A program made the translations under genes and the position numbers. A stretch of DNA of 9,102 nucleotides from Methylomarinum sp. (GTDB taxonomy: Bacteria > Pseudomonadota > Gammaproteobacteria > Methylococcales > Methylomonadaceae): positions 1 through 9,102 of the forward strand of contig WTAG01000656.1 of NCBI GenBank assembly GCA_013139755.1, written 5' to 3'. Every line of letters begins with the position of its first letter. Position 1 is the first letter of the stretch. A model generated the notes under the pieces. The model worked only from the letters and a program-made list of their open reading frames with translations. It was not told where the DNA came from and did not search any database. This document shows positions 1,153-9,102 of the stretch, piece after piece.

Positions 1153-2040
1153 TTACTCTTTCGGTAACTCTATTGATTTTTTAGAAGTCACCTTATTAAT
1201 TAAACCTGTCAATAATTTAACTAATAAACCAATACCTTGGGCAAGCATTTCAAAAATGGTACTTACAATCTCTGTAACTGTCATACCTTTAAACTTACGT
1301 GCCAAAAGAGGTGCAAGCAATAATCCGACAGCAAGGCCAATAATCATCACGCCCGAGATGACCGAATCATTTTCAGCTATTTTTTTCTCTTTAGCAGCCT
1401 TAGCTTTCTCAGCTTTTATTACTGCAGCTGACTTAACAATAACTTCCGGGATACTTTTGCTGTAATCATCCTGAATAACATTAGCAGAAACACCAGGAAT
1501 ACTCGGCAAATCTCCACTACCCTTGCCTATTTTAAGCTGAGCTTTCATACCCTTTTCCATGTGCTGAGAAATATCACAATGGACTAAGTATGTCTTGTCA
1601 TTAGGCGGAAAAATTAAAGTCCCTGATATTTTCCCCGGTCCTGTTACTTCTAAATGAAACATACCTTTTGGGTAAAGATATCTTGGCAATCCATGCATCA
1701 TCCACTGATGGCGAATCTCATCATCATTAACAAAATTAACCGTTAATTTGGTGCATGGCTCAAACTGATATTCCTGCTTGTCAAAGCCAAACATCGTCCC
1801 TGGAAATTTTTCAGAATATTTATGTCCGGCATGGACGGTGATCTCTTTGCTTGCTGAGATCTTATCGCAACCACCCGGCAAGACATCGGTATTTTGTCCC
1901 ATCACCATACCGCCATCCATATCCATTAAATGACCATCTCCATGATCCATTAAACGAGTATGATCCATAAATTCTTTTTCAGCAAAAGCGGAGGCTGAAA
2001 TAGTAAGCCCTAATACTGCTGTTATCAATAACTTATGCAT
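1153..2040 (-). CDS. Membrane-anchored periplasmic cupredoxin with Met/His-rich N-terminus
   Basis: The 295-residue product begins with a signal peptide (about residues 1-20, ending ASAFA). A copper-binding-style Met/His segment follows at 25-47, with MDH at 25-27 and 31-33 plus H37, M39, M41, M45 and M47. The cupredoxin domain spans about 58-172. Its type 1 copper ligands can be read as H111 (in RHQWMMHGLP), then C155, H160 and M165 with C-x4-H-x4-M spacing. C58 and C96 may form a disulfide. An Ala/Lys-rich linker (about 200-222) leads to one membrane helix (about 227-246) and then a cytoplasmic tail with an amphipathic stretch (about 252-285). The expected role is one-electron transfer or copper binding at the periplasmic face. 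The ATG overlaps the oxidase stop as TAATG, and AGGAGG lies 9 nt upstream, so translation is coupled. It is the last gene before the terminator. No CuA motif (CxxxCxxxH) is present, so it is not an oxidase subunit II. Confidence 0.85.
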   Translation of the reverse strand: MHKLLITAVLGLTISASAFAEKEFMDHTRLMDHGDGHLMDMDGGMVMGQNTDVLPGGCDKISASKEITVHAGHKYSEKFPGTMFGFDKQEYQFEPCTKLTVNFVNDDEIRHQWMMHGLPRYLYPKGMFHLEVTGPGKISGTLIFPPNDKTYLVHCDISQHMEKGMKAQLKIGKGSGDLPSIPGVSANVIQDDYSKSIPEVIVKSAAVIKAEKAKAAKEKKIAENDSVISGVMIIGLAVGLLLAPLLARKFKGMTVTEIVSTIFEMLAQGIGLLVKLLTGLINKVTSKKSIELPKE

Positions 2041-3806
2041 TATTTATTTCCTCCTTTAATAGATGAAATCATCGCCATGATTTTTTCACGGTTTAAAAAG
2101 AGCAAATAAGCGGCAATACCAAAAATCAAGCCCCAAATAAAGTTACTGACCGAATCATCACTGTTTTCAAGTGCGGCTGAAGCTGCCGCTTGCTCATCGT
2201 AAAACTTCATTGATTTAGGGCCTTCTTCAACCACTGCTGGTTTAGCCGCCGGAGGTGCTCGATAATCTTTAGCATCAATCTCACCTAGACTATTCCAGGC
2301 ATCGATATCTTGCCATACCGGTAATTTTCTCTCGTTAAATTTCTTAGAAAATAACGGCATCACACTTTCGCCAATGGTTTTTGGCAAACCAACTTCATTC
2401 AAGTATTTTTTATAAACTAAAGCACTGACATTACCACCAGGATTTTGCCCGTTAGTTTGAATACCTTTCTCTCTATGATCGTGAAAAATCCATACCCCTT
2501 GACCATAACTGTGTAAACCGTCGTCAACTGTACTTATTTTTAAATCATTCCGTTGCGCAGGAGCAATATCATAAATATCACGCATAATCTGTGCATCAGG
2601 GTTATGCAAGACCCCGTCATAATGGGTAATTGTTGCTTTATGCCCATGCGTATGTAGTGCTAGTTGCTCACCTGCACTATTAAATACTCGCATTTTAATG
2701 TTTTCATCAGGCTCAGCAACAATGATTGACTCCCTTAATGTATAAGGGAATGAACGACCATTAAGCGTATAGTAATCTTCAGTTGCTTCGCCCATATCGT
2801 ATTCACGATTCATTTTCTTGGCAATTAAACGAGGATCATTATATTTTTGAATTGTATCGTGCAACTCTTTATCCATTGCATGATAGTGCAAATCATATTC
2901 ACTATCATATTCTTCAAGAATTGCTTTTGATGGATGCCTTACTTGACCCGCCCCCACGTTAAACGTCTGTACCCAGTTGTTTGGTCTGTTCTCTTCGACC
3001 ACAAACATACCAACTAAGCCCATTGCTAAATGCACATGTGTTTGTACATGACAATGGTAAACAAAAGTCCCGGGCTGTCTTGGGCGAATTTCATACGTTT
3101 TACTTTGTCCCGGTAAAACAAACTTATCACTTGTTTGTGGAACACCATCATTCCCCTCACCAGCACTATCAACCCAAGGGTGATCAACACCATGTAAATG
3201 AATAGTATGAGGAAAATAGCGACTATTTTCTAATTGAATCCAGACAATATCACCTTGTTCTACACGAATAACAGGTGATGGTGCTCTTAATAAAGGATTA
3301 GCATCTGTACCAACAAAACTGTTCGTTGCCATTCCTCTAGATTTTGGTGCAAACACCCACATGCCAGGTTGAACCCCTGGAGCAATGTCAAAAGTAGGAA
3401 CTAGACCATCAAAGTCTGGAGAGTGGCCATTAAGCTCAGCCACTTCCAGTTTGATAATTATGAGATCAGGATCTCCATCCCCATCCATGTCATTCTTTTT
3501 AATAATTGCATCAGCGGCGTAATAGGTATTCATCAATGTTTCCATTGAAAGATTATTGGTACCTTTTACTTCTGCTGCAATTTGCGCTGGATTATCAGGA
3601 CTACAACGTAAAGACTCCTGAATCTTTACGCCCTCAATCGTTTGCGCTTTACGCCATTCGGGTTCATTTGAGCTACAAACAGCCTCAACTTCACCTTTAT
3701 CAACACTGACTGCTTTAGGCAAACCGACTACAGCCGATGCCGACAAAGGCATCAGCACTACAGCGGCACCCAAAAGAATACTTAGGGAATGGAGATGTTT
3801 CTGCAT
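2040..3806 (-). CDS. Two-domain multicopper oxidase (type C), membrane-anchored
   Basis: The 588-residue product has a signal peptide (about 1-25, ASA), two cupredoxin domains (about 175-272 and 360-468), a Pro/Ala-rich linker and a C-terminal membrane helix (about 554-571) with a Lys-rich tail. The trinuclear copper site is complete: H203/H205 in HTIHLHG, H251/H253 in HCH, H385/H387 in HTHGH, and H442/H444 in HDH. Type 1 copper ligands lie in domain 1: H200, C252, H257 and M262, as in the NirK domain 1 pattern. In domain 2 the Cys position is D443, so no second type 1 site exists. This matches type C two-domain oxidases such as the blue copper oxidase of Nitrosomonas europaea. The family couples one-electron oxidation of a substrate to O2 reduction to water; the substrate here is unknown (Cu(I), a phenol or a redox protein are possible). 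An unusual leader before domain 1 holds a DMDGDGDPD loop (106-114) and Cys 44 and 68. It lies 30 nt after the PmoD-like gene, with AAGG 8 nt before the ATG. Confidence 0.92.
   Translation of the reverse strand: MQKHLHSLSILLGAAVVLMPLSASAVVGLPKAVSVDKGEVEAVCSSNEPEWRKAQTIEGVKIQESLRCSPDNPAQIAAEVKGTNNLSMETLMNTYYAADAIIKKNDMDGDGDPDLIIIKLEVAELNGHSPDFDGLVPTFDIAPGVQPGMWVFAPKSRGMATNSFVGTDANPLLRAPSPVIRVEQGDIVWIQLENSRYFPHTIHLHGVDHPWVDSAGEGNDGVPQTSDKFVLPGQSKTYEIRPRQPGTFVYHCHVQTHVHLAMGLVGMFVVEENRPNNWVQTFNVGAGQVRHPSKAILEEYDSEYDLHYHAMDKELHDTIQKYNDPRLIAKKMNREYDMGEATEDYYTLNGRSFPYTLRESIIVAEPDENIKMRVFNSAGEQLALHTHGHKATITHYDGVLHNPDAQIMRDIYDIAPAQRNDLKISTVDDGLHSYGQGVWIFHDHREKGIQTNGQNPGGNVSALVYKKYLNEVGLPKTIGESVMPLFSKKFNERKLPVWQDIDAWNSLGEIDAKDYRAPPAAKPAVVEEGPKSMKFYDEQAAASAALENSDDSVSNFIWGLIFGIAAYLLFLNREKIMAMISSIKGGNK
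2050..2055 (-). promoter_or_regulatory. Strong Shine-Dalgarno for the cupredoxin gene
   Basis: AGGAGG on the minus strand lies 9 nt before the cupredoxin ATG. It sits inside the last codons of the oxidase gene, where it encodes the Gly-Gly of the KGGNK tail. Together with the TAATG stop/start overlap, it shows that the two proteins are meant to be made together, and it may let the cupredoxin be made in excess over the oxidase. Confidence 0.8.
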
Positions 3807-3836
3807 TTTATATACCTTGTTTTAAGTTGCTGTTAC

Positions 3837-4433
3837 TTATTTAAGTTTTGTAGCATCACCAATGATTCCATCAACTTTCTTTTTAAACCCTTCATTTGAA
3901 AGGTAAAAAACATATAAAGCGGCTAAAACAACTATAAAATAAATTAATAGGCTACCTTTACTTGCTGCTATGCCTGTACCCGCTCTAAAAGACATATGCG
4001 CATCAAGCCTTTCACCATTACCTTTTAATAAGGTAATGTGAATCAGATATTTACCAGCCTCAGGCACACCGTTTGGCAGAGCTAAAACAACAGTACCTGA
4101 TTTTTGTTTTTTCGCTTCACGAAAGAAAACGCGAGTACCTTCAGGTTCTTTAGTTACCTCAAACTCTACTGCCATATTACGGTATCTAACATCCTGGTAA
4201 TCGAAAACCAACTGAGTCATAGTTGATACATCAGGAAGGCTTCCACAAAATTCGTCACCTGGATAAGCATTGGGTTGGTACGCTGTATAATGAATCCAAT
4301 GATCAGGTTCTAGCTCAAATTTACATTGATCAGTATCTGTACCGGCTGCACCACCGTGAGCCCAAAGCACTGTTGAAAATAATAAGCCTAGAAGACCTAG
4401 AAAACTTTGTCTTAAAATTTGTTTTTTATTCAT
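3837..4433 (-). CDS. PmoD/AmoD-like membrane-anchored periplasmic copper protein (probable)
   Basis: This 198-residue protein has an N-terminal signal peptide (1-25, ending VLWA). Cleavage would leave His26 as the first mature residue, followed by Gly-Gly. The periplasmic domain (about 26-155) has C37 in DQCKFEL, H45 and H48 in DHWIHYTAYQP, and C63 in EFCGSLPD, then a beta-rich part with M72 and M87. One membrane helix (about 161-178) and a basic tail end the protein. The C...HYTAYQP...EFC..LPD pattern and this topology resemble the PmoD/AmoD family from pmo/amo operons, where a CuA-type site forms from Cys, His and Met at a dimer interface. I make that match from memory, so it is probable rather than proven. 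It is the first gene of the copper operon. GGAAGG ends 4 nt before the ATG, and the oxidase gene follows after 30 nt. If it is not PmoD-like, it is still a secreted copper-ligand-bearing membrane protein. Confidence 0.7.
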   Translation of the reverse strand: MNKKQILRQSFLGLLGLLFSTVLWAHGGAAGTDTDQCKFELEPDHWIHYTAYQPNAYPGDEFCGSLPDVSTMTQLVFDYQDVRYRNMAVEFEVTKEPEGTRVFFREAKKQKSGTVVLALPNGVPEAGKYLIHITLLKGNGERLDAHMSFRAGTGIAASKGSLLIYFIVVLAALYVFYLSNEGFKKKVDGIIGDATKLK

Positions 4434-4558: not shown

Positions 4559-4805
4559 AGATTTTCAACGAAGTTATCGAATATTTTCAAGAGTATAAAG
4601 CCAGCCATGAATTAATAGGTATGCCCTTTAACATTACTAACAGCTTTTATCCTTACAAGTTGTAATTATATTTTTGCTGAAAGTAACTGTTAACTTTATC
4701 ACACCATATTAAGCAAAGAAAGTAAGTCTATTCTTTATCTATGTGTGCAACTCAACAATACATTATTAAATCACCTTATACTAATTTATTTTTGCGTAAT
4801 TATAT

Positions 4806-4866: not shown

Positions 4867-6507
4867 ATGTCTTCTTTATGCGACTCTTCCGAATGGCTTG
4901 CCCTTAAACAACACTATGAAGAAGTCAGTAATCTGTCGATGAAACAACAATTTGCTGACGACAGCGAACGGCATAAAAAACTGTCACTCCAATTTAACGA
5001 TATCCTGTTCGATTTTTCAAAAAACAGAATTACTTCAGACACCCTCCCTCTCTTAACTAAACTCGCTGAACAAGCCAATCTTGTTGAAAAAACCCATGCC
5101 ATGTTTTCTGGTGAGATTATCAACACCACCGAACAAAGAGCTGTTTTACATACCGCCCTTAGAAATAGAAGCAATAAACCAGTCTATACTAATGGTAAAA
5201 ATGTTATGCCTGAAATTAATCAAGTTTTGGCTAAAATGCGTGTATTTTCTGAGAAAGTAAGGTCCGGTGAATGGAGAGGCTACACTAACAAGCCTATCAC
5301 AGATGTTGTAAATATTGGAATCGGCGGCTCTGATTTAGGCCCAAAAATGGTCACAACAGCCCTTGAACCTTATTCAACACCCAACCTACAGTCACATTTT
5401 GTCTCAAATGTCGACCAAACCGATATTATTACCGTATTAAAACGCTTAAACCCTGAAACGACGTTATTTCTAATTGCCTCAAAAGTCTTTAATACCAAAG
5501 AAACCATGACCAATGCGCACAGTGCACGCAAATGGCTATTAAATTCTGCTTTTGATAAATCAGCAATCAAAAAACACTTTGTGGCCATCTCCACTCACAA
5601 AGAAAACGTGACTAATTTTGGTATTGACCCAGAAAATATGTTCGAATTCTGGGACTGGGTTGGTGGCCGCTACTCCCTTTGGTCTGCTATTGGACTTTCC
5701 ATCGCTATTTCCATCGGCATGGATAACTTTGAAGAATTATTAATGGGAGCCCATTCAGCTGACCTACACTTTCGAGACACACCTCTAGATAAAAATATCC
5801 CCGTCACCATGGCATTACTGGGTATTTGGTATAACAATTTTTTTAAGGTTGAATCGCACGCATTACTGCCTTATGACCAATCACTTTATTTCTTTGCTGA
5901 TTACTTTCAACAAGGTGATATGGAAAGTAATGGTAAATCAATTACCACTGATGGCAAAAATATCGATTACAACACCGGTCCCATCATCTGGGGGCAACCA
6001 GGGACCAACGGGCAACATGCCTTTTATCAGCTAATACATCAAGGTACAAAACTTATCCCGTGTGACTTTCTGGCCGCAGCTCAAGGACATTATGACTCGC
6101 CAGTCCATCACGACATATTAATGTCTAACTTCCTGGCGCAACCAGAAGCGTTAATGAATGGCAAATCTAAGCAAGAAGTGGAAAATGATATTGGTGCGTC
6201 AGATCCACTTTTAACCATGTCTAAAGTGTTCTCTGGCAACAAACCTTCCAATTCATTTTTATATAAGAAACTGACCCCTCGCACACTGGGCACACTACTT
6301 GCGTTTTATGAACACAAAATTTTTGTTCAGGGTGTTATTTGGAATATTAACTCTTTCGACCAAATGGGAGTAGAACTTGGTAACGTATTGGCTAAAGCCA
6401 TTTTGCCTGAGCTTAAAAGTGGTGAATCGATTAACACCCACGACTCATCTACAAATGCACTCATCAATACCTATAAAAAACTGCGTGATGAACAGCACGC
6501 AGTTTAA
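4867..6507 (+). CDS. pgi: Glucose-6-phosphate isomerase homologue with altered active site
   Basis: The 546-residue product aligns with E. coli PGI (549 aa) nearly end to end. Conserved blocks are [43 protein letters not shown] with the proton-transfer Glu (E353), [18 protein letters not shown] with the ring-opening His (H384) and HDSSTN near the end. PGI interconverts glucose 6-phosphate and fructose 6-phosphate in the cytoplasm; in RuMP-cycle methanotrophs this links hexulose phosphate products to the Entner-Doudoroff and glycogen routes. Several normally fixed positions are changed. The catalytic Lys closing the second signature (E. coli K514) is N506 in [10 protein letters not shown]. The phosphate-loop SKTFTT is SKVFNT (V207, N209). 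The usual DGTH is DQTD (Q184, D186), and FDQW is FDQM. A 6-residue deletion near 440-450 relative to E. coli lies in a variable loop. The reading frame is intact. It is a PGI by descent; activity is uncertain. Confidence 0.9.
6478..6505. terminator. Hairpin overlapping the end of pgi
   Basis: A perfect 10-bp inverted repeat (AAACTGCGTG and CACGCAGTTT, 8-nt loop) covers the last codons of pgi and the first base of its TAA stop. Read on the minus strand it is followed by TTTTTT and looks like a good intrinsic terminator. Read on the plus strand the tail is TTTAATTCTAAAT, a weak T-tract. It may partly end pgi transcription before mltF, protect the pgi mRNA end, or stop antisense transcripts entering pgi from the tadA side. 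Confidence 0.6.
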
Positions 6508-6538
6508 TTCTAAATAATTGTTAGATAAGGTTAATAAA

Positions 6539-7990
6539 TTGTCGAAATCCATTCTCACATTCATTATTAGCCTTATTTCGACATCTATCCTGATTTCTTG
6601 TGACAACTACAAACCAAATCACCTAGGATTCTCCGCCCTTGAGCAAATTAAAGCCGAAGGGACAATTAATGTATTTACCCGTCTGGACCCAACAACATAT
6701 TACCAAGGGGCTGATGGCATAACCGGCTTAGAATATGATCTAGTCATGCTTTTTGCTGACCAGCTAAAAGTTAAAGTTAACTTCATATTTCCTGATAGCT
6801 TTGATGATATTCTAAATGGTATTTCAGAAAATAAAGCCGATATCGCTGCCGCAGGACTTACGGTTACTGAGCCGCGCAAATTAAAAATGCATTTTGCCCC
6901 CGCTTACCAAAGCATTACTGAACAAGTTATTTATCGCTCAGGTAAAAAAAGACCGAGGACGATTACTGATTTAAGTAATGGAATCCTCGAAATAGTCAAA
7001 GGAACAAGCCATACTGAGAGCTTAAAAAAACTATTAGACAAGCACCCAAACCTCACATGGAACACTAACGAAGTGCTTAATACCGATGGCTTACTATATT
7101 TAGTTAATGAAGGTTTAATTGACTACACGATTGCTGATTCACACCAAGCCAGTACCATCAAACACTTTTACCCAAAACTGAATATTGCTTTTAATATCAC
7201 CAAACCTCGCCACCTGGCCTGGGCCTTACCTCTCTCAAAAGATAACAGCCTTTATGATGAAATCAGTCGCTTTTTTAGCAGGATAAAAAAAGATAAAACA
7301 CTTCAGCACTTGCTAGAAAAACATTATGGAAACACTGGGAATTTAAGTTATGTCGGTAATTGTCGATTTAGATTACACGTAAAAAGTCGACTTCCAACTT
7401 ATGAAAAACTCTTTAAAACTGAAGCGATAAAACACGATATAGATTGGCGTTTGCTTGCAGCTATAGGCTATCAAGAATCTCACTGGCGTGCCGATGTAGT
7501 ATCACCTACAGGCGTAAGAGGCCTAATGATGCTAACCAAAAGCACGGCCAAACAATTGGGTGTTACAGACCGAACCGATCCTGTACAAAGCATTACAGGT
7601 GGTGCTTTATATTTTAAACAACGGCTTAAACAAATACCGGATCAGATTCAAGAGCCTGATCGCACATGGTTTGCCCTAGCATCATACAATGTTGGTTTTG
7701 GACACTTAGAAGATGCGAGAATTCTAACTCAAAAAAGAAATGCAAATCCCAACAAATGGTTAGATGTAAAAAAATCACTACCTTTACTTAGCAAAAAGAA
7801 ATGGTACGAACAAACCCGATATGGTTATGCCAGAGGTGGAGAACCGGTTCGCTATGTTGAAAATATTAGAAGTTACTATGATTTATTATTCTGGTTAACC
7901 GAGGAAAATCAAATAGAAAAAGACGTTATGTCCATAGAAGCTGTTGCTCCGGAAAATAATGCGCTTAGCTTTGTACCACCAAGTTTATAA
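6539..7990 (+). CDS. mltF: Membrane-bound lytic murein transglycosylase F (lipoprotein form)
   Basis: The product (483 aa from the chosen start) has the MltF architecture: a periplasmic substrate-binding-protein-like domain (about 40-265) followed by a lytic transglycosylase SLT domain (about 290-445). The catalytic Glu is E313 in YQESHW, followed by PTGVRGLMMLT (323-333), ASYNVGFGH (381-389) and GGEPVRYVENI (433-443). The enzyme cleaves the MurNAc-GlcNAc bond of peptidoglycan, forming 1,6-anhydro ends. I chose the TTG at 6539 because AAGG lies 8 nt upstream and the frame then opens directly with a lipoprotein signal peptide ending LISC (lipid Cys 21). A longer version from TTG at 6518 has no ribosome site. 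The residue after the lipid Cys is Asp, which in enterobacteria favours inner-membrane retention. It follows pgi after 31 nt, past the hairpin at the pgi end, and its stop overlaps that of tadA on the other strand. Confidence 0.9.
   Translation: MSKSILTFIISLISTSILISCDNYKPNHLGFSALEQIKAEGTINVFTRLDPTTYYQGADGITGLEYDLVMLFADQLKVKVNFIFPDSFDDILNGISENKADIAAAGLTVTEPRKLKMHFAPAYQSITEQVIYRSGKKRPRTITDLSNGILEIVKGTSHTESLKKLLDKHPNLTWNTNEVLNTDGLLYLVNEGLIDYTIADSHQASTIKHFYPKLNIAFNITKPRHLAWALPLSKDNSLYDEISRFFSRIKKDKTLQHLLEKHYGNTGNLSYVGNCRFRLHVKSRLPTYEKLFKTEAIKHDIDWRLLAAIGYQESHWRADVVSPTGVRGLMMLTKSTAKQLGVTDRTDPVQSITGGALYFKQRLKQIPDQIQEPDRTWFALASYNVGFGHLEDARILTQKRNANPNKWLDVKKSLPLLSKKKWYEQTRYGYARGGEPVRYVENIRSYYDLLFWLTEENQIEKDVMSIEAVAPENNALSFVPPSL
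7985..7990. other. TTATAA palindrome serving as stop codon for both convergent genes
   Basis: The last three bases give TAA for mltF on the plus strand. The first three, read on the minus strand, give TAA for tadA. The two genes overlap by exactly these six bases, and no intrinsic terminator is visible between them, so their transcripts should have overlapping 3' ends. Confidence 0.9.
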
Positions 7991-8473
7991 TGATTTTCTG
8001 AGTAACTTCCCTCTTTCTCGCTTTGCACGAAAAAAATCCCTTAGTAATTCAGAGCATGTCTGCTCAAGCACGCCGCCTTGCCAATCTACACGATGATTCA
8101 AAAAGCTCGCGTCAGTCAGACTTAAGGCATTGCAAACCGCGCCACGCTTAGGATCAAATGCCCCGAAAACCAAACGTTTAACCCGTGCATGAGAAATTGC
8201 CCCCATACACATCACACAAGGCTCTAAAGTGACATAGAGTGTTGCATCTGTAAGTCTATAATTTTTTAGAGCCAACCCCGCATGACGCATTGCCATCATT
8301 TCTGCATGCGCTGTTGGATCATGACTTTGAATAGGGATATTCCAACCCTCAGCAAGACACTGTCCTTCTTTGACTAAAACCGCACCCACAGGGACTTCAC
8401 CCTGTGTTTCTGCACGTTGCGCCAATCGTATTGCATGGCGCATCCATTGCTCATCTATTTTTGTTATTCCCAC
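7985..8473 (-). CDS. tadA: tRNA-specific adenosine deaminase
   Basis: The 162-residue cytosine-deaminase-fold enzyme closely follows E. coli TadA. H56 and E58 in [10 protein letters not shown] and C86/C89 in LEPCVMC form the zinc site and proton shuttle. The flanks [35 protein letters not shown] and [10 protein letters not shown] are all conserved. It converts the wobble adenosine of tRNA-Arg(ACG) to inosine in the cytoplasm and is usually essential. The start is a GTG at 8473, inside the last codons of guaA (10-nt overlap). It is supported because the residues before the family's WMRHA motif (residues 10-14) match the length of E. coli TadA; the next ATG (codon 11) would cut into that motif. 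The ribosome site is weak, so translation probably depends on coupling to guaA. Its stop lies in a TTATAA shared with mltF. Confidence 0.95.
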
Positions 8474-9102
8474 TCAATAGTAGCCGGCGGCTTGCCTGAA
8501 ATATCGTAACAAACACGGGAAATACCAGACACTTCATTAATGATGCGTCTAGAGATTAAATCTAAGAAGTCATAAGGTAAATGCGCCCAACGAGCCGTCA
8601 TAAAATCAATCGTCTCAACCGCACGAATAGCAATGACATAATCATAACGTCTGCCATCACCCATCACACCCACCGACTTAACAGGTAAGAAAACAGCAAA
8701 AGCTTGACTGACTTTATTGTAAAGGTCATTCGCGTACAGCTCTTCGATAAAAATGGCATCGGCTAGCCTTAATAATTCAGCATACTCTTTTTTAACTTCA
8801 CCTAAGATTCTGACGCCTAACCCAGGCCCAGGAAATGGATGACGAAACACCATATCCGCTGGCAAGCCTAATTCCAAGCCCAGTTTTCTTACTTCATCTT
8901 TGAACAATTCTCTTAAAGGCTCAACCAGCTTTAATTTCATATCCTCAGGTAATCCACCGACATTATGATGTGACTTAATCAAATGCGCTTTACCACTTTT
9001 AGATCCGGCTGATTCAATGACATCAGGATAAATAGTGCCTTGAGCTAACCATTTTGCATCAATAAATTTAGCAGCCTCTTCATCAAATATCTCGATAAAC
9101 AA
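8464..9102 (-). CDS. guaA: GMP synthase (glutamine-hydrolysing), C-terminal part
   Basis: The last 212 codons are visible and the 5' part lies beyond the right edge; the first visible codon, TTG at 9102, is an internal Leu. The segment covers the end of the ATP-pyrophosphatase domain and the C-terminal dimerisation domain. It includes [66 protein letters not shown] and the invariant C-terminus [10 protein letters not shown]. The enzyme aminates XMP to GMP using glutamine and ATP in the cytoplasm. The full family length is about 525 aa. tadA starts inside its last codons, so the two genes form a coupled pair. Identification is secure. Confidence 0.97.

Follow-up and report, generated by a model that had tools for sequence, protein, structure and literature searches.

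Positions 1 to 9,102 of contig WTAG01000656.1 of Methylomarinum sp. (Methylococcales; assembly GCA_013139755.1), hereafter the window, carry three intact copper-protein genes in an operon-like row. They encode a PmoD-like protein, a multicopper oxidase (MCO) and a type 1 cupredoxin (Cup). The order of the three genes is kept across phyla, they co-occur with copper monooxygenases (CuMMO), and in some lineages they are located within a CuMMO operon. Copper handling for CuMMO is the most economical reading of this association, of the conserved order and of the intact sites. From sequence comparison, we therefore consider it somewhat probable that the trio forms a putative module that captures, oxidises and loads copper specifically for CuMMO, that is, for the particulate methane monooxygenase (pMMO) and its relatives.

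All three genes lie on the minus strand: the PmoD-like gene (198 aa) at 4433-3837, the MCO gene (588 aa) at 3806-2040 and the Cup gene (295 aa) at 2040-1153. These open reading frames were confirmed exactly, as were the back-to-back arrangement and both junctions given in a preliminary description of the sequence: a 30 nt gap between PmoD and MCO, and a one-base overlap (TAATG) between MCO and Cup. The strong terminator proposed to close the operon was also recovered. A Rho-independent structure, a hairpin followed by a U tract, lies directly 3' of the Cup gene at about 1140-1104 (minus strand); the 63-nt stretch folded with -26.2 kcal/mol and z = -5.8, a value equalled by 0 of 200 shuffles. 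This hairpin was not among the calls of a simple terminator scan. Upstream of the operon, the best sigma-70-like promoter match (4665-4693, minus strand) agreed at 11 of 12 positions. It is weak evidence, as the scan of this region gave 17 matches against 12.1 in shuffles.

We found the trio directly 3' of pmoB, inside the CuMMO operon, in five genomes: three Binatia (loci L033, L035 and L036) and two gammaproteobacterial genomes (L067 and L068). The gene order in L033 was pmoD, pmoC, pmoA, a further gene, pmoB, pmoD, MCO and Cup, followed by a PQQ dehydrogenase gene, and L035 and L036 were laid out alike. The order was pmoC, pmoA, pmoB, pmoD, MCO, Cup in L067 and pmoA, pmoB, pmoD, MCO, Cup in L068, where no pmoC was recognised upstream. 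Apparent intergenic gaps in L033, L067 and L068 ranged from -107 to 203 nt, the negative values being due to start choice. At the Hyphomicrobiales locus L039, pmoA, pmoB and two pmoD genes were followed by MCO. A PmoD gene 3' of pmoB without an adjoining MCO was seen in six loci (L039, L071, L075, L077, L078 and L083).

Co-occurrence pointed in the same direction. In the class sample of genome G019 (369 genomes), Cup was found in 11 genomes, PmoB in 11 and both in 10 (Fisher p = 1.1e-17); these counts include G019 itself, the chosen centre, which is among the 10 with both and also contributed a row to the profile. Profile matches among 151 Methylococcales genomes were obtained for MCO in 146, Cup in 143, the PmoD-like protein in 145 and PmoB in 129. 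Cup and PmoB were found together in 128 of these, Cup only in 15, PmoB only in 1 and neither in 7, an association that was weaker, in the same sense (p = 4e-6). Of the 45 genomes listed with MCO, 37 also had PmoB. Both genomic linkage and co-occurrence, as looked for in a CuMMO accessory module, were thus observed, the former at five operonic loci and the latter in the class and Methylococcales samples. The tie between the trio and copper monooxygenases put forward in the preliminary description is borne out by the class sample, by the gene order across two phyla and by the five CuMMO-operon loci.

Scanning genome contigs with the MCO profile gave at least 45 loci. The full order PmoD-MCO-Cup was present at 12 of the 45 listed, three of them from Candidatus Binatia. 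The trio was cut by contig or locus ends in L007, L008 and L042, and L039 has two PmoDs upstream of MCO. The order recurs in Methylococcales, in Candidatus Binatia, which belong to another phylum, and in further gammaproteobacterial genomes. The Binatia locus L035 lies on a 5.18 Mb record titled chromosome 1, which argues against contamination. Among the matches listed for 139 Methylococcales genomes, the trio was contiguous in at least 48; other layouts were MCO-Cup only (8), MCO-PmoD-Cup (2), PmoD-MCO only (2) and none (16). A view at the level of regions adds trios in L057, L058 and L074. Contiguity is not universal, since in many Methylococcales the MCO gene lies elsewhere while PmoD and Cup are still paired. 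In a tree of 57 MCOs, with the root drawn at midpoint, the 27 lone MCOs that were long enough formed one clade (100/100), sister to ten trio-type rows, with more trio rows outside. As the sister of the lone-MCO clade consists of trio MCOs, the trio looks older than the split under this root, and MCO appears to have left the gene cluster once. The long branches of Binatia and L039 meet in this tree, which was therefore used solely for placing the lone MCOs. One in-frame TAA was seen inside the MCO matches of G014, G083, G118, G122, G127 and G171, and may mean that lone MCOs have lost the C-terminal anchor. MCO-Cup pairs without adjacent PmoD, apart from the main unit, were seen in L061, L062, L073 and L080; the MCO is diverged and the Cup short in L061 and L062.

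Several observations weigh against a module dedicated to CuMMO. There were no pmo genes within the window. Among 20 Methylococcales regions examined, pmo genes were present in L050 only, and PmoB lay within 6 kb of Cup in 4 of the 151 Methylococcales among the matches listed; pmo linkage is the exception in this order. MCO adjoined neither PmoD nor Cup at 29 of the 45 listed loci, some of which end soon after MCO, and 63 of the 139 Methylococcales had a PmoD-Cup pair without adjacent MCO among the matches listed. On the question, raised in the preliminary description, of whether the genes lie apart in most genomes, the outcome was mixed: co-occurrence with CuMMO held, whereas contiguity did not, with 63 PmoD-Cup pairs versus at least 48 trios. 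The Fisher p-values are uncorrected for kinship, and shared ancestry makes them optimistic. Within the class sample, G402 had Cup without PmoB and G570 PmoB without Cup, and for 8 of the 45 genomes listed with MCO no PmoB was found. The phylum sample of Binatia had both Cup and PmoB in the chosen centre G033 and neither in the other 147 genomes. In the order of G039 (254 genomes, with typical alphaproteobacterial methanotrophs not covered by name), MCO was found at E <= 1e-100 in the centre G039 only. These two samples have no bearing on co-occurrence because matches were confined to the chosen centre. In the family of G039 (30 genomes), no Cup was found, and the single genome with PmoB was G039, where the contig stops directly beyond MCO. 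Of the four genomes with PmoB about 5 kb from Cup, G054 has the two on the same strand, and G013 (L050), G122 and G171 have them on opposite strands.

The first protein of the trio comprises a signal peptide, a cupredoxin-like domain with C37, H45, H48 and C63, a C-terminal membrane helix (160-179) and a basic tail; signal peptides of all three proteins were assigned by eye and hydropathy. The mature N-terminus is likely His26, with the signal peptide cut after LWA. As the preliminary description had proposed, this is a Cys/His protein of the PmoD/AmoD type. The only convincing relative in the PDB was the PmoD structure 6CPD from Methylocystis sp. Rockwell, with E = 0.0015 for the single sequence and E = 1.2e-23 for the profile. 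Foldseek with the predicted model (mean pLDDT 82) also ranked 6CPD first (E = 1.3e-9, TMt 0.80), with CopC structures lower in the list. The window protein shares with 6CPD the fold, the two invariant Cys, the signal peptide and the C-terminal membrane helix. Across 38 PmoD sequences C37 and C63 were invariant, and H48 and H26 nearly so. In the profile alignment the CuA motif of 6CPD reads C-x7-M-x-H. In contrast, the window protein has C-x10-H through a one-residue insertion, lacks the CuA Met ligand and is not encoded in a pmo operon within the window. Most trio lineages seen had C-x9-H; the window clade had C-x10-H, L057 and L058 had C-x9-M and L074 had C-x8-M. Trio PmoDs thus retain Cys and His, or carry Met near or in place of His. 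When PmoDs adjoining MCO or Cup were compared with the Cx7MxHxnC pattern of the CuA-forming class, Cx7MxH was found in none. A CuA electron relay by the trio PmoD was accordingly rejected on the basis of a ligand motif without Met. In the available text of Fisher 2018 (PMC6189053), the PmoD family includes a CuA protein, representative C-x9-H and C-x8-M PmoDs bind copper with no CuA formed, and disruption of a pmo-operon pmoD impairs copper-dependent growth on methane. According to the same text, MCO genes are common neighbours of C-x8-M PmoD genes, and copC is often close to those of the C-x9-H type.

The second protein matched Cu-oxidase Pfam domains above cut-offs. Its closest solved relatives were the two-domain MCOs 2ZWN, a metagenomic laccase, and 3G5W, which we take to be the Nitrosomonas europaea enzyme. 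By motif and from what is known of such oxidases, we assigned H200, C252, H259 and M262 to the type 1 (T1) site and H203, H205, H251, H253, H385, H387, H442 and H444 to the trinuclear site. The His and Cys ligands of both sites were invariant in 64 of 64 aligned rows and the T1 Met, M262, was present in 63; the alignment includes the window, and L033 and L046 are one gene counted twice. H257 had also been considered as the T1 His, but it is present in 57 of 64 rows and was set aside in favour of the invariant H259. The ligand set of the four-copper oxidase described earlier was therefore intact; the protein itself appears to be a two-domain enzyme that carries its type 1 site in the first domain. 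Both cupredoxin domains align with those of 3G5W and 2ZWN, including the T1 pattern Cys-x6-His-x2-Met in domain 1 and the eight trinuclear His. Unlike these enzymes, the trio MCO has an N-terminal extension of about 140 residues and a C-terminal membrane anchor, a helix at about 552-571. Within the extension is a DxDxDxD loop (108-114), whose D108, D110, D112 and D114 were invariant in 57 of 57 rows. This loop resembles a calcium-binding loop, and the extension around it had no Pfam match. The resistance oxidases CueO and CopA (PcoA) share MCO chemistry with the trio enzyme, and Met/His-rich copper-binding segments are common to these oxidases and the trio. However, the NCBIfam score of the trio MCO (35.8 bits) was far below the cut-offs of 478.95 for copper_res_A and 525 for CueO, and the trio is tied to CuMMO, not to general resistance.

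The third protein has a Met/His-rich N-terminal segment (H27-M47), T1 ligands H111, C155, H160 and M165, and C-terminal hydrophobic helices. Its predicted model (mean pLDDT 84) has a cupredoxin fold like that of laccase domains and auracyanin, and CueO domains were also matched in the fold search; the Cup profile gave no match among PDB sequences at E <= 0.01. H111, M114, H116, H154, C155 and H160 were invariant in 44 of 44 rows and M165 was present in 43, in an alignment that includes the window, counts one gene as both L033 and L046, and contains L075 as a fragment. Leader residues Met39 and Met47 were kept in 43 of the 44 rows and Met45 in 41, so that the type 1 cupredoxin with a Met/His segment stands as first described. 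The fold is shared with auracyanin, pseudoazurin and laccase T1 domains, whereas the Met/His-rich leader, the conserved C58 and C96 and the membrane helices set Cup apart from them. The Cup leader of L068 (6566-7447) contains several MDHSQ repeat copies, an expanded copper-binding-like segment. A common plan with one C-terminal helix and a basic tail had been attributed to all three proteins. It fits PmoD but not Cup, whose model shows two long C-terminal helices (205-249 and 255-288) and whose extreme C-terminal tail is not clearly basic.

We also considered the genes surrounding the trio. Two membrane-protein genes lie on the minus strand beyond the terminator. One (1087-662) encodes a 141-aa protein with a weak VTT-domain match (E = 3.3e-6, below the Pfam cut-off), and the other (645-1), which runs off the window edge, encodes a polytopic protein with no family matched. 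Relatives of both were found 3' of Cup in five of seven Methylococcales regions compared (L047, L048, L049, L060 and L066); whether they are part of the copper unit is uncertain. On the other side (4867-9102), the neighbours are housekeeping-like by eye: glucose-6-phosphate isomerase, an MltF-like lytic transglycosylase, TadA and GuaA. Related genomes retain the first and second of these next to the locus. In L047 (Methylobacter tundripaludum, the same genome as L019), flanking genes of the window are kept on both sides of a PmoD-Cup pair with 64 to 70% identity. A PADLOC run on the window gave no match. The CuMMO-trio row of Binatia is followed by a gene for a PQQ-dependent dehydrogenase (L033:12305-14077, also L035 and L036), assigned to the methanol/ethanol family by a test in L033 only; the next oxidation step may be co-transcribed with the row. 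The gene between pmoA and pmoB (L033:7493-7888) encodes a small one-helix protein (117-131 aa in Binatia) with no Pfam match and, by eye, a likely mature N-terminus His-Gly, as in PmoB and PmoD. Similar-looking esterase-like proteins of 302-311 aa, again by eye, adjoin the operons of L067 (7668-8603) and L068 (5672-6580); the former had no Pfam match.

If the trio serves to load CuMMO, Cup would capture periplasmic copper through its Met/His segment and T1 site. MCO, probably a trimer, would act as a cuprous oxidase that uses O2 and sets the copper oxidation state. PmoD, with its Cys/His set and no CuA Met, would then pass copper to the monooxygenase or take copper from it. All three proteins would be held at the inner membrane, the site of pMMO, and this shared anchoring makes a physical complex plausible. 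More tentatively, it is possible that PmoD, the anchored MCO and Cup form a stable inner-membrane complex docked on the monooxygenase trimer, using O2 to keep the copper sites of the enzyme occupied and in the proper oxidation state.

The same proteins might instead form a short electron-transfer chain, in which MCO, Cup and PmoD would pass electrons among the respiratory chain, O2 and the monooxygenase, either feeding the enzyme or letting electrons overflow to O2. Two type 1 sites in one operon, membrane anchors on all three proteins, the CuA member of the PmoD family (PMC6189053, available text) and the methanol/ethanol-family PQQ-dependent dehydrogenase that comes next in the Binatia operon all agree with such a chain. 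We nevertheless regard it as rather unlikely: the trio PmoDs lack the CuA Met, and no CuA forms in the Cx9H and Cx8M representatives studied (same text); MCO ends in O2 reduction, so electrons would be wasted; and the conserved Met/His segment better suits copper binding.

Periplasmic copper detoxification, with a CueO/CopA-like cuprous oxidase and copper-binding partners protecting copper-rich cells, appears decidedly unlikely. The MCO does match copper-resistance oxidase models, if weakly and far below cut-offs, CueO and laccase domains are among the matches of the Cup model, and the Methylococcus gene MCA2130 is reported to be lower without copper (PMC6688271, available text). But generic resistance would be expected across copper-exposed bacteria, yet Cup was present in 1 of the 358 class-sample genomes without PmoB, and the trio is located in CuMMO operons. 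Generic copper resistance as the main role was rejected on the distribution in the class sample. We think it very improbable that the proteins are independent cuproteins, with no joint function, gathered in copper-rich methanotrophs. The genomes where MCO is apart from the PmoD-Cup pair (63 among the matches listed) and the loci where it has neither neighbour (29 of the 45 listed) would suit this explanation. Against it stand the gene order shared by two phyla and by diverged lineages, the one-base overlap in the window, and the PmoD-Cup pair that persists when MCO is elsewhere.

The adjacency of pmoD and MCO genes is already known. Some pmoDs adjoin MCO genes in the Fig. 4d legend of Fisher 2018 (PMC6189053), and the Kam1 genome paper (PMC6688271) gives, in its available text, Methylococcus capsulatus MCA2130 as a pmoD adjoining a multicopper oxidase and down-regulated without copper, with a pmoD-MCO pair in Methylacidiphilum as well. 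The MCA2130 locus is probably the same unit as the trio; in contrast to our loci, those accounts, as far as their available text goes, make no mention of a third gene or of a trio in CuMMO operons. The third protein and the presence in another phylum are thus an extension. The preliminary description knew of no system of this composition. That holds for the trio, as no description of it or of its place in CuMMO operons appeared in the literature listings, in which most papers were covered at the level of the listing and subscription papers and supplements were excluded; it does not hold for the pmoD-MCO pair (PMC6189053 and PMC6688271, available text). The available text of the Binatota paper reports pmoD in 5 of 11 CuMMO genomes and does not contain the word multicopper. 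None of the terms searched for occurred in the main text of the Methylococcus copper transcriptome (10.1002/mbo3.324), and a search for MCA2129/MCA2128 matched only unrelated fungal work. The copC, copD and pCuAC genes of extended pmo/amo operons (PMC6189053, available text) are likewise copper-handling genes beside CuMMO, whereas the trio belongs to different protein families.

pMMO and the ammonia monooxygenase (AMO) drive the methane and nitrogen cycles. When membranes are isolated and the enzyme is purified, pMMO activity drops 10- to 100-fold (PMC6189053, available text), a loss that suggests missing partners. If the docked complex is real, it would be a missing component that explains this loss, conserved between Proteobacteria and Binatia. 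As a unit that tracks CuMMO and is operon-encoded in some lineages, the trio provides concrete, testable candidates for the missing partners of pMMO.

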